Under the pieces are notes generated by a model. That model was not told the origin of the DNA. It worked only from the letters and a program-made list of their open reading frames with translations, and did no database searches. From Bacteroidota bacterium (GTDB lineage Bacteria > Bacteroidota > Ignavibacteria > Kapaibacteriales > UBA2268), in contig JAJRTW010000153.1 of NCBI GenBank assembly GCA_024278075.1, positions 1 to 32,679 on the forward strand: a stretch of DNA of 32,679 nucleotides, read 5' to 3'. The position numbers and the translations under genes are program-made. Below are positions 25,122-31,702 of the stretch, in pieces. The first letter of the stretch is position 1, and every line of letters begins with the position of its first letter.

Positions 25122-25195
25122 CGTAGGGGACGGTTCCAAACCGTCCCTGAAAATAACATTGACTTGCCAGGGCAGGTTACGAACCTGCCCCTACG
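25122..25195. repeat. Nested palindromic element CGTAGGGG...CCCCTACG
   Basis: Outer arms CGTAGGGG (25122-25129) and CCCCTACG (25188-25195) flank two hairpins, GGGACGGTT/AACCGTCCC (25127-25147) and GGGCAGGTT/AACCTGCCC (25170-25190). The two hairpins are similar but not identical. The layout resembles paired REP (BIME-like) or small non-autonomous elements. Confidence 0.8.
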
Positions 25196-25241
25196 GAGTT
25201 AATTTAAAAAATTCTGCCGTCGTAAGTTGTAATATAATTTG

Positions 25242-25267: not shown

Positions 25268-25380
25268 AGGATAAATTGATTGCAAATTTTGTTTGCATAT
25301 TTCTTATATTGTAATAACTTTCAGTAAAGATTTTAATTAATAATCGAGGAAAACCGGAGAAAAATAATAATCGCAGGTCA

Positions 25381-25419
25381 TTGCTTGCAATAATAGTTGC
25401 TTGCAATAATCATTGCTGC
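25381..25419. repeat. 16-bp direct repeats upstream of the structured RNA
   Basis: TTGCTTGCAATAATAG (25381), TTGCTTGCAATAATCA (25397) and a partial TTGCTGCAA (25413). They lie about 35-75 nt before the RNA candidate and could be operator sites. The 10-mer TTGCTTGCAA occurs in reverse complement inside the following coding sequence. Confidence 0.7.
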
Positions 25420-25454
25420 AAAAATATATATATAAGCGTTTGCTTATTTTCGTT

Positions 25455-25572
25455 CTAAGTTGAAAACCGACAAAATTTCATACATGGAAAACGAAATAAG
25501 TGATCGCTCCTGTTCATAGGGGCGGTTTACTTATGTCTTCCATGATAGGTGCTTGTCGGTACCTCAACTTAG
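25455..25572 (+). ncRNA. Candidate structured RNA, 118-nt rod with five helices
   Basis: Five nested helices stack into one rod: CTAAGTTGA/TCAACTTAG (25455-25463 with 25564-25572), ACCGACA/TGTCGGT (25466-25472 with 25554-25560), CATGGAA/TTCCATG (25483-25489 with 25538-25544), ATAAGT/ACTTAT (25496-25501 with 25529-25534), and ATCGCTCCT/AGGGGCGGT (25503-25511 with 25518-25526) capped by GTTCAT. That is 38 base pairs with two G-U. Internal loops are 2/3, 10/9, 6/3 and 1/2 nt. A terminator follows immediately. A long rod with a central bubble recalls 6S RNA, but it is shorter than usual and I see no specific match. It could instead be a cis-acting leader of the methyltransferase gene. Confidence 0.6.
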
Positions 25573-25599
25573 GGCATTTGTTAAATCGCCCTTTTTTTT
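25571..25599 (+). terminator. Intrinsic terminator after the structured RNA
   Basis: AGGGC (25571-25575) pairs with GCCCT (25588-25592), and inside it ATTT pairs with AAAT over GTT with one bulged C. Eight T follow (25592-25599). It shares two bases with the closing helix of the RNA. It lies only 17 nt before the ATG of the methyltransferase gene, so that gene must be transcribed by read-through or conditional antitermination. Confidence 0.75.
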
Positions 25600-25616
25600 A
25601 TTCTTGAGGTATCATT

Positions 25617-26585
25617 ATGAATATTGAGAAACTGAAATTATTTTTGACAGACATTACTGACATTTTAGTTGCAGATGGTGAAAAGCAGTGTTATGATATG
25701 CTTTCGGGTATATTGGAAGAATTCGCCGAAGAAAGAGAAACGTATTCTGCCGAAAAAGACAAAGAAGAATACTTGAAATTCAAAAAAGAAATCCACCCTA
25801 TCCTTCTTGAATCCAAGTTTAGTAAATACATTATTCATAAGCCCGGCGGGTATGCAGGTGATTTTGTCAGCCAGGAATTAATATGGTTTGGACGGACATT
25901 GAAAGGCGAATATAAATATTGCGGCGTCACGGAGAGGGGTAAATTAATTAGCTCGCTTACCTTTGATATGGAAGCGTGCAAAGCCTATGAAGAAAGAATA
26001 AAAATTATTAGAGACCTAATACAAAATGAAGGCAATGAAATTGCAAGCAATAAGATTGCAAGCTATAAAATTGCGAGCATTGGCTGCGGTTCGGCGATTG
26101 AGCTTTGGGATTTGCAAGATTGGATAGATGAGGAAGATATAGATATTTTCCTGTTAGACCAGGATGATAGAGCCTTAAAAAGGGCTAAACAAAAGCTGGG
26201 CCAAGTGAAAAATGGCAATGTTTGTTTTCACAATGAAAATATTCTAAAATTCATTCTCAATCAGGATAATACCATTCTTTCCCCAAGAGATTTGATCTAT
26301 GTTGCGGGCATGACGGACTACTTTTCTACTGAAAATTCCAGCAGGATAGCAAAGGGCTTATGGAAGTTTGTGAAACCGGGCGGTTTGCTCGTTGTCACTA
26401 ATGCCCATCCGAAAACTCCGACCAGATTTTGGATGGAATATGGTGGTGATTGGATTTTGAAATATAAAACCGAGGGCGAGATGTATCGCGTTTCCGAAGG
26501 CTTATCATCAATTGAAGATGTTAAAGTACGCATCGATAGTCAGGGAGTTCACCAATATTTAAAAATCAGGAAATCATCTAATTGA
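25617..26585 (+). CDS. Class I SAM-dependent methyltransferase, PhcB-like
   Basis: The protein is 322 aa. A helical N-terminal region (1-70) leads to KPGGYAGD (75-82), a motif shared with PhcB-type enzymes that methylate 3-hydroxy fatty acids into signal molecules. A Rossmann core follows: IASIGCGSA (152-160, motif I), IFLLDQDDRAL (177-187), DLIYVAGMTDYFS (225-237), FVKPGGLLVVTN (251-262) and MEYGGDWILKYKT (273-285). The substrate cannot be assigned; a 3-hydroxy fatty acid is one option. Residues 141-154 (EIASNKIASYKIAS) are a tandem repeat of a 15-bp unit just before motif I. The gene follows a structured RNA and terminator within 17 nt, suggesting leader control. Confidence 0.75.
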   Translation: MNIEKLKLFLTDITDILVADGEKQCYDMLSGILEEFAEERETYSAEKDKEEYLKFKKEIHPILLESKFSKYIIHKPGGYAGDFVSQELIWFGRTLKGEYKYCGVTERGKLISSLTFDMEACKAYEERIKIIRDLIQNEGNEIASNKIASYKIASIGCGSAIELWDLQDWIDEEDIDIFLLDQDDRALKRAKQKLGQVKNGNVCFHNENILKFILNQDNTILSPRDLIYVAGMTDYFSTENSSRIAKGLWKFVKPGGLLVVTNAHPKTPTRFWMEYGGDWILKYKTEGEMYRVSEGLSSIEDVKVRIDSQGVHQYLKIRKSSN

Positions 26586-29107: not shown

Positions 29108-30787
29108 TTATTCCGTCAACCAATTTAACGCTTCTTGTGTTATTCCGTTATACCAATCTACTTCATTTTCAGTCGAGTTCGCTAATTCATTTGAACGCTC
29201 AAAAAATCGCTGAACGTGTCTTGGCTCTGGAACGTAACTTGCGTTGTATGAATCCTGAACCATCTTTATAAAAACACTTAAAGGTAAAGGAACAATCGTT
29301 GAAGTTCCGCCATAGTATTGAATATTCATTTTATGCAAAGCGTAAAAATGTGCTTTACAAGCATCATTAATGTTAGGGGCTATAAATAAACAATACGCTG
29401 GTTTTTCAGTTTCTTTCTTGAATTTTGCAAGGTGTCTCGTAACTGGTTCGCCTTCCGTTTCATATTGTCTTTGACCACCTTGCATAGTTACTTCAACTGT
29501 TAAACCAAAGTCGTCATAATCACAAACAATATCCGCCATATTACCTTGTGCGGTTGACATTGGATTACCAAAATCATCAAATTTTAGATTTGCTTTTATA
29601 TTTCCACCGTCTAACATTGTCATTGCTCGCCAAGTGTTCCATTCCAACATTAATGGGTTGTCGTAAAGTGAATTGGCAATTATTTGGTCAAACGTTGTGC
29701 TAATTTCTTCAAATTTTCGATAGTCTTTTATTGCTGAAACTTGGTCAGTAAGTATTTGTTCTCTTCTGTTGTCTAACTCGTCTGCAAATATATTTTTTAG
29801 GTCTTGTAAAGTGGCAGTCGCTGAAATTTCAAGTAACGGAAATTCAGACCTTATTTTTTGTTCGAGTAACTCCCTATTATCAGTTAATAAATTTGGAATT
29901 GAAGGATTACCAAGATAAGTAACATACTGTCTTTCATTATCAACCAATATAGGGTCTCTATCTGTATTTTGAAGAAAGAAATCAACCTCTTCCATCTTTT
30001 CTGGAACGATTGAAAGAGACTTGCCAAAATGAGAGATATTTACCAAACCTGTTGCTCTCAAGTAACGTACACAAGCATCTGCATAGTCTCGCATATTACT
30101 TGCCTTGGTCTTAATAAATTTTGGAATTGAAGCATCATTTGTTTGTCGTGTTTTAGTGTTTCCTGAACTTATATCTGCTTCATAAAGTTCTCTAATTTCA
30201 CTATCTAAATATTCGGCACGAAATCGTTTATAATTTCCAACATTCTGTGCTTTTGCAATTCTGAATTGGTTTATCTTTTCAACTATTGTATCAAATTCTC
30301 TATAATCCACTAACTGTAATCCGAAAATTTTTAGTTCATCAAACTTCAAAGAGCCAAAATGCCTAACGAGTCGAAATAATTCAAGATATGGTTTAACCCA
30401 AAATTCAGCCGAAGTTGCAGTTGGTTTGTGAAATGGTGAAGGAACTTGAAATTTCAGCAATTGTCTTAAAAATATTTCCTCTTTTCGTTTTGAGTTTATC
30501 AGTTCTTCGCCTGCTGAAGTTAGTTGTATTACTGGCGATAGTACAACAAAGCCAAGGGCTTTTGGTGCTCTATTTATTCTGTCTCTTGCACTAAATGACG
30601 GGTCTTTTGCACCTTTTCCATTAAAGAAATTTTCTTCTTTTAATAGTTCCATAAAGGCAAGTTGGGTCTCTTTATTCCATTTCTGACCTGCAAAATGAGT
30701 GTTCAATAACTCAATTTCAGGAATCATTTTAGAAGGTGTTCTTGGTGAAGTTGTAACAAATATTACTTTACTGTTTATTGTCGCCAT
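29108..30787 (-). CDS. AlwI-family type II restriction endonuclease
   Basis: The protein is 559 aa. The N-terminus (VIFVTTSPRTPSKMIPEI, then FAGQKWNKETQLAFMELL and SARDRINRAPKALGF) is characteristic of the AlwI family, which recognises GGATC and cuts outside the site. The nuclease core is NMADIVCDYDDFGLTVEVTM followed by GQRQYETEGEPVTRHL, with a D...ExT arrangement of the PD-(D/E)xK type. It starts 6 bp after the methyltransferase stop, so order and spacing give an XRE-M-R operon. The AT-rich coding sequence and the integrase remnant nearby suggest transfer. GGATC specificity is inferred from the family and from the Dam-type partner. Confidence 0.85.
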   Translation of the reverse strand: MATINSKVIFVTTSPRTPSKMIPEIELLNTHFAGQKWNKETQLAFMELLKEENFFNGKGAKDPSFSARDRINRAPKALGFVVLSPVIQLTSAGEELINSKRKEEIFLRQLLKFQVPSPFHKPTATSAEFWVKPYLELFRLVRHFGSLKFDELKIFGLQLVDYREFDTIVEKINQFRIAKAQNVGNYKRFRAEYLDSEIRELYEADISSGNTKTRQTNDASIPKFIKTKASNMRDYADACVRYLRATGLVNISHFGKSLSIVPEKMEEVDFFLQNTDRDPILVDNERQYVTYLGNPSIPNLLTDNRELLEQKIRSEFPLLEISATATLQDLKNIFADELDNRREQILTDQVSAIKDYRKFEEISTTFDQIIANSLYDNPLMLEWNTWRAMTMLDGGNIKANLKFDDFGNPMSTAQGNMADIVCDYDDFGLTVEVTMQGGQRQYETEGEPVTRHLAKFKKETEKPAYCLFIAPNINDACKAHFYALHKMNIQYYGGTSTIVPLPLSVFIKMVQDSYNASYVPEPRHVQRFFERSNELANSTENEVDWYNGITQEALNWLTE

Positions 30788-30793
30788 AAAATA

Positions 30794-31702
30794 TTAAAAT
30801 GCTAGTTCTTTTTGAAATGCTAGTTCAGGAAAGTGTTTTTCTGCTTCATTACCGTAGTTTGAAATTAAAATGTGCTTTGCTTCTGATTTAAATCTGTTTC
30901 TAATGTTTACAGTATAAGATTTACCATACTCGTCAACAATTAAATCTTCATATAATTTCTCTGTTAAAGGTGTTCTACCGATAACCATTAATGCTTTGCA
31001 TTTTAATTCACGAAAATTGTCGGCTAAAACAGTATGATTTTTTTCGTTAAATCCATCTTTATGTTCTACGTTGCCATAGTCTGAAAACACACAGTCATAA
31101 GGTGGGTCTAAAAACATAAAATCGTCTTTTTCAGCCATTTTAAAAATTTTAGTGTAATCAAGATTGTATATTTCCGTATTTGCAAGTAACTTGTTGTGTG
31201 ATTTTGTAACCAAAGAAGTATTCAGGTTTTTATACCTACCGTAAGGCACATTAAATTCGCCTTTCGAGTTGTATCTAATCATACCTGAATAAGCAGTTTT
31301 GTTTATGAAGAAATAAAGCAATGCTTCGGAATATTTTTTTTCGGTCAAATCATTGAACATTTCTCTGATTTCGTAATACAGAGGTTCGTTTTCGTCATTT
31401 ACTCGTTGGTCTGGTGTCTTGCTTTTGAGTTCTTCAAATTTTCTTCGATTTATCGTGTAAAGTTTTTCAATTTCGGTTAGTTCAGTTTTAAGAACTTCAA
31501 AATTGTCTTTTACTCCCAAATAAAATGAGATTAGTTTTGAGTTAATGTCATTGATAATTGCTTTTTTTGGCTCTAAATGAAAGAACAAAGCACCACCACC
31601 AAAAAAGGGTTCAATGTATTTCCCACTAAACTTTGGAATATGTTTTATCAAATGAGGGATTTCTCTTGATTTTCCTCCTCTGTATTTTACAAGTGGTTTC
31701 AT
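30794..31702 (-). CDS. Dam/DpnM-type N6-adenine DNA methyltransferase (D12 class)
   Basis: The protein is 302 aa. Motif X is VKYRGGKSREIPHLIKHIP (5-23), motif I is EPFFGGGALFFHL (31-43) and motif IV is FLDPPYD (197-203). The INDINSKLISFY block (50-61) between them is typical of the D12 class. Enzymes of this class mostly methylate adenine in GATC, which would modify both strands of the asymmetric GGATC site. A single methylase could therefore protect against the AlwI-type nuclease downstream. The start overlaps the stop of the XRE gene in ATGA. Confidence 0.9.
   Translation of the reverse strand: MKPLVKYRGGKSREIPHLIKHIPKFSGKYIEPFFGGGALFFHLEPKKAIINDINSKLISFYLGVKDNFEVLKTELTEIEKLYTINRRKFEELKSKTPDQRVNDENEPLYYEIREMFNDLTEKKYSEALLYFFINKTAYSGMIRYNSKGEFNVPYGRYKNLNTSLVTKSHNKLLANTEIYNLDYTKIFKMAEKDDFMFLDPPYDCVFSDYGNVEHKDGFNEKNHTVLADNFRELKCKALMVIGRTPLTEKLYEDLIVDEYGKSYTVNIRNRFKSEAKHILISNYGNEAEKHFPELAFQKELAF

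Follow-up and report, generated by a model that had tools for sequence, protein, structure and literature searches.

The window analysed here is a stretch of 32,679 nucleotides (nt) of a Bacteroidota genome (contig JAJRTW010000153.1 of assembly GCA_024278075.1, positions 1 to 32,679, forward strand). It contains, on its + strand, an open reading frame (ORF) encoding a 322-amino-acid class-I SAM-dependent methyltransferase (25617..26585), preceded by a structured leader RNA (25425-25600, +) made up of a 5' hairpin, a long rod, a strand located before the U-tract, and eight U. The preliminary description of this locus regarded the protein as a PhcB-like SAM-dependent methyltransferase; the enzymatic class is retained, the PhcB-like assignment is not, as the Pfam matches are to generic class-I models only (Methyltransf_31, E-value 3.9e-6; Methyltransf_12, E-value 4.5e-6). 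In BLAST comparisons, the protein groups with methyltransferases encoded behind three other copies of the leader.

The 5' hairpin (ATAAGC-GTTT-GCTTAT, 25432..25447, +) is followed by the rod, in which helices P1, P2, and P3 lead up to an apical hairpin (25452..25575, +). The closing helix P1 contains 12 bp (25452-25463/25564-25575, +), and P2 (25466-25473/25553-25560, +) is separated from P3 by a central bubble. The 5' arm of the apical hairpin, X1 (25503..25511, +, limits approximate), pairs within the rod with the 3' arm X' (GGGCGGUUUAC, 25518..25530, +), whose other partner is X2 (GUUAAAUCGCCC); X2, the termination strand, and the U8 tract that follows it occupy 25580..25599 (+). The predicted fold of positions 25455-25574 has an energy of -51.9 kcal/mol, compared with a mean of -23.7 for shuffled sequences (z -8.9), and none of 200 shuffles reached so low a value. 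The rod is where it had been placed initially, with two corrections to its limits: the closing helix is a 12-bp helix that includes a GUUCU:AGGGC foot, and the conserved family element begins upstream of the rod, at the 5' hairpin (~25432-25447). The intrinsic terminator described previously is seen in the window sequence, a G+C stem with its U8 tract ending at 25599, as is the methyltransferase ATG at 25617, 17 nt further on.

Repeats of the type TTGCTTGCAATAAT lie upstream of the leader RNA (25383-25421). Three 16-bp repeats at this location (~25381-25421) had been proposed as operators, but they are not seen upstream of other copies and lie outside the family. Units ATTGCAAGCAATA resembling them are found inside the methyltransferase gene (26035-26080), and a palindromic stretch (GGGGACGGTTCCAAACCGTCCC ... 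GGGCAGGTTACGAACCTGCCCC, 25125-25198) is located between a SpoU gene and the leader. On the - strand, 3 kb behind the methyltransferase gene, an AlwI-type restriction endonuclease (PF09491) is encoded beside a Dam-family adenine methyltransferase (TIGR00571), as a restriction-modification pair occupying 29108-31702.

A Leader RNA Family in Bacteroidota

By using a blastn-type search of the same genome, we identified related copies on three other contigs (C241, C21, and C39). A covariance model built from four copies (R1) retrieved five copies in the source genome, with E-values from 3.7e-45 to 1.9e-17, and, among 100 genomes of relatives, about 100 copies distributed over 28, with a maximum of 14 in one genome. 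A second model built from 92 copies (R2) detected the leader RNA in 48 of 395 genomes sampled phylum-wide and in 56 of 294 sampled across the class, all genomes sampled for the family being within Bacteroidota. The covariance model also confirmed plasmid-borne copies from Rhizosphaericola mali (plasmid pB3-10) and Phocaeicola massiliensis, as well as copies on contigs of the viral collection IMG/VR; DNA searches of phage records returned none. The copy on C39 is preceded, at a distance of 600 nt, by a weak second R1 match (L104:276-385; 31.6 bits, E-value 0.0003), possibly a decayed copy. Copies from the same genome (G015, G064, or G008) often resemble each other from ~60-90 nt upstream to just past the U-tract and no further; in G064, the similarity extends into the start of the gene and then stops.

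At the gathering threshold, no Rfam family was matched in the window, a permissive scan of the window gave only matches far below the cut-off at the element, and twenty divergent loci gave no match at the element. The earlier statement that the RNA matches no known riboswitch class is supported by these scans. Literature searches retrieved no description of the family, which may nevertheless be included in the motif list of Fremin and Bhatt (2021), who catalogued many uncharacterized Bacteroidetes motifs. We conclude that the leader RNA represents a family for which we found neither an Rfam class nor a published description.

The covariance search proposed initially thus yielded homologs, and the compensatory changes that it was meant to reveal were found throughout the rod. 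All 50 modeled pairs, including those of the 5' hairpin, have changed on both sides, and 91.5% of the alignment cells are paired (100 copies); for the 5' hairpin alone, all five pairs have changed on both sides and 90.6% of cells are paired (100 copies). The covariation score is 0.721, versus 0.228 in shuffled alignments (0/500 as high) and at most 0.126 when partners were slid along the alignment. Because the alignment was fitted to the rod structure, part of this signal leans its way, but a bias of this kind would fall far short of the observed margin over the slid controls. P1 and P3 are almost freely variable in sequence while keeping their pairing. Among unpaired positions, the least variable are AA and CC, located between P1 and P2, and the GGU of the central bubble. 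The conserved fold is an RNA fold.

Copies behave like discrete units, the similarity between which often ends just past the U-tract within genomes, and some are found beside toxin-antitoxin genes, on a mobilizable plasmid, or in contigs of the viral collection. These features would suit a recombination or cassette site acting at the DNA level, such as an integron attC, whose fold would be that of single-stranded DNA. The attC end boxes (RYYYAAC/GTTRRRY) are present in only 1 of 119 copies, which led us to reject an integron attC, and the strand-specific U-tract, the upstream promoter, and the constant orientation relative to the gene all point to RNA, making a DNA-level element highly improbable.

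Two Competing Pairings before the U-Tract

The AGGGC that ends P1 (25571..25575, +) is both the 3' strand of the P1 foot and the 5' arm of a local terminator: in the window, it may pair with GTTCT (25452-25456) or with GCCC(T) (25588-25592), that is, with the GCCC(U) preceding the U-tract. Because the closing helix takes in GUUCU:AGGGC, the whole of AGGGC is common to P1 and the terminator stem, and the overlap is therefore 5 nt rather than the two bases counted previously. On the alignment, AGGGC:GCCC is paired in 82.2% of cells versus 77.6% after shuffling, and 29 cells display double-side changes versus 10.8 (0/500 shuffles). The mean energies calculated over 116 copies are -58.9 kcal/mol for the zipped rod and -59.9 for the local-terminator state, and P1 and the local terminator are predicted to exclude each other while differing little in energy. 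In the most distant group examined, no local terminator is present (L142 and L145, about 0 kcal/mol).

The second competition involves the apical hairpin. X2, the 10-12 nt before the U-tract, is complementary to X', with a mean energy of -14.3 kcal/mol for a copy's own partner versus -9.7 for swapped partners, the lowest of 2000 permutations being -10.5. The preference is also found within genomes (own -14.26 versus other partner -12.19; permutation 0/5000), which argues for pairing in cis. When X':X2 is scored as a 10-pair helix on the alignment, 79 cells have changed on both sides versus 30.7 in shuffles (0/500); the tail columns had been aligned without regard to this pairing. For ten held-out copies (plasmids and IMG/VR contigs), the part of the tail that pairs best with X' lies directly before, or a few bases from, a T-rich stretch, and between 0 and 13.5% of shuffled tails attained its energy. 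At least four T immediately follow X2 in 107 of 119 copies. Since X' pairs with X1 in the rod and with X2 before the U-tract, X1 and X2 compete for X'. The earlier impression that mutually exclusive hairpins were not obvious here is consequently incorrect on two counts, the sharing of AGGGC by P1 and the terminator and this X':X2 pairing.

How X2 might gain access to X' is less straightforward. With the rod intact, X':X2 is a pseudoknot calculated at 3.5 kcal/mol above the rod, entropy penalty not yet added, and the RNA would have to fold back on itself at the central bubble, a reach that is possible according to a rough count of helices. A nested X':X2 terminator is ~19 kcal/mol worse than the rod and was discarded as an equilibrium structure. 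Given the cost of the pseudoknot and the poor nested alternative, the route of X2 to X' is put forward as a proposal only.

Placement between Promoter and Gene

Upstream of the RNA, the window contains a candidate Bacteroidota-type promoter (TTG, 22 nt, TATATTGT; 25280..25312, +), a weak one read from the sequence, the window copy being a poor match. Across the family, perfect sites for the pattern TTTG-N17-23-TAnnTTTG were found upstream of the copies 17 times, versus 1.8 in shuffles. Of 119 copies, 115 are followed by a sense ORF, at a median distance of 46 nt and in 65 cases within 60 nt, leaving few copies without an adjacent sense gene. ORFs covering the 5' half of the rod are depleted (55/128 versus 91.8 in shuffles), so the leader RNA is probably untranslated, and a leader-peptide attenuator was rejected from these same counts.

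Nearly all copies have a U-tract, and paralogous multicopy small RNA (sRNA) families exist in Bacteroides, for example, FopS (PMC11697453), so that the element might be regarded as a stand-alone sRNA that ends in a terminator of its own, travels with accessory genes, and acts in trans as an antisense RNA or a protein sponge. FopS resembles the leader RNA in being a multicopy Bacteroidota RNA with a terminator, present about a dozen times per genome; by its description, on which our comparison is based, it consists of a single-stranded 5' seed and a terminator hairpin and represses SusC mRNAs in trans, whereas the leader RNA is a long rod in cis with 50 covarying pairs. Moreover, an ORF starts at most 60 nt from the U-tract in 65 of the 115 copies, leaving little or no space for another promoter, and longer gaps are likewise not enriched in promoters: among 32 loci with an RNA-gene gap of at least 110 nt, none had a perfect match, and a looser threshold gave two versus 4.1 expected. 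A stand-alone sRNA is, accordingly, unlikely.

The same observations bear on the 6S-like stand-alone RNA suggested in the preliminary description. The leader RNA shares with 6S RNA (RF00013; RF01685, 6S-Flavo) a rod, a central bubble, and a terminal closing helix, but it is multicopy, missing from most sampled genomes, and placed as a leader between promoter and gene, with a gap in which promoters are not enriched. The proposed Rfam scan for 6S gave no match to this or any known class, in searches where the 6S control was matched in 5 of 14 genomes. We therefore discarded 6S; the separate RF01685 search, for which the positive control was matched nowhere, carries no weight in this.

With the rod sitting between a promoter and often operon-like gene sets, a terminator right behind it, and a very diverse cargo, processive antitermination as in EAR or put RNA may also be envisaged, the rod binding the elongation complex to allow read-through of adjacent and later terminators. 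Many targets look like single genes, however, and such a mechanism does not require a conserved competition for X2; this alternative is very unlikely.

A Putative Conditional Terminator

We consider that the element is probably a cis-acting leader, transcribed from an upstream promoter and forming a conditional terminator at the U-tract before the gene. The sequences themselves show a family of rods with two conserved competing pairings, set between promoter and gene. Of the two layouts suggested earlier, that of a structured leader whose control would probably be exerted at termination is supported.

Transcription would start at the promoter upstream of the leader, and the polymerase would either stop at the U-tract or enter the gene 17 nt on; that this choice is conditional is something we infer. 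When the rod is fully zipped, AGGGC would be held by P1 and X' by the apical hairpin, leaving X2 without a partner and permitting read-through, presumably the ON state. If the P1 foot opened, or if X' were released or invaded, X2 could pair with AGGGC, as a local hairpin, and/or with X', placing a stable helix directly on the U-tract and causing termination. The balance might be shifted by a small-molecule or protein signal that binds the conserved internal loops, for which the AAAA/ACC loop between P1 and P2 and the GGU-containing bubble between P2 and P3 are candidate sites.

Such an organization is reminiscent of terminator-type riboswitches as a kind: a 5' leader with a compact covarying fold, a P1 3' strand common to the terminator stem, and a U-tract near the start codon. 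Two hallmarks of riboswitches are found here, a 5' untranslated leader whose conserved fold covaries and a mutually exclusive expression-platform pairing. The leader RNA differs from these riboswitches in that it matches no known class, its targets share no pathway, it adds a long-range pairing between an apical arm and the strand before the U-tract, and it reaches 14 copies per genome. As judged from its sequence, its anatomy is that of a terminator-type riboswitch or of a protein-controlled attenuator, outside all Rfam classes.

Genes behind the Leader

The genes behind the leader are very diverse and largely accessory. Among the 109 first genes scanned, the T9SS sorting domain (PF18962) is encoded by 22, and beta-propeller or WD40 models are matched by at most 12; three of the genes behind the leader match SusC/RagA and four match thioester-reductase models. 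Others encode an EcoRI-type methylase, type III restriction and modification subunits, GmrSD, or a reverse transcriptase. These targets have no pathway in common, and therefore no ligand can be guessed from gene content.

Several further observations concern these loci. A reverse transcriptase gene (RVT_1, L138:97-1053) lies ~450 nt behind one leader copy, and two members of the leader gene set match retron-type reverse transcriptase models. Behind two of the genes that follow a leader copy, both in the same genome, short repeats (L002:2595-3085 and L004:2287-2601) translate as CPLDGDLCPLDDD/CPFDEDL runs. Small toxin-antitoxin-like genes (RelE, PemK, PIN, HicB-like) are located just upstream of five elements (L050, L078, L046, L056, and L104).

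GEMM (c-di-GMP) riboswitches occur in many copies per genome before diverse genes, often encoding secreted or surface proteins. The leader RNA likewise precedes diverse genes in many copies per genome, but its secondary structure is different and no GEMM model was matched in the Rfam scans. More speculatively, the leader could be a portable, phylum-wide switch module that spreads with accessory genes, places secreted, restriction, and transport genes under one global signal, and terminates through the pseudoknotted apex:X2 helix, a scenario that we regard as possible but doubtful as a whole.

Bacteroidota are major bacteria of gut, soil, and water, in which few classes of cis-regulatory RNA are known. 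That the leader occurs up to 14 times per genome, in front of genes for SusC transporters, restriction systems, and T9SS-secreted proteins, suggests a global signal or an RNA-binding regulator. Because the positions of the competing strands are mapped to the base, the putative switch is directly testable in vitro.
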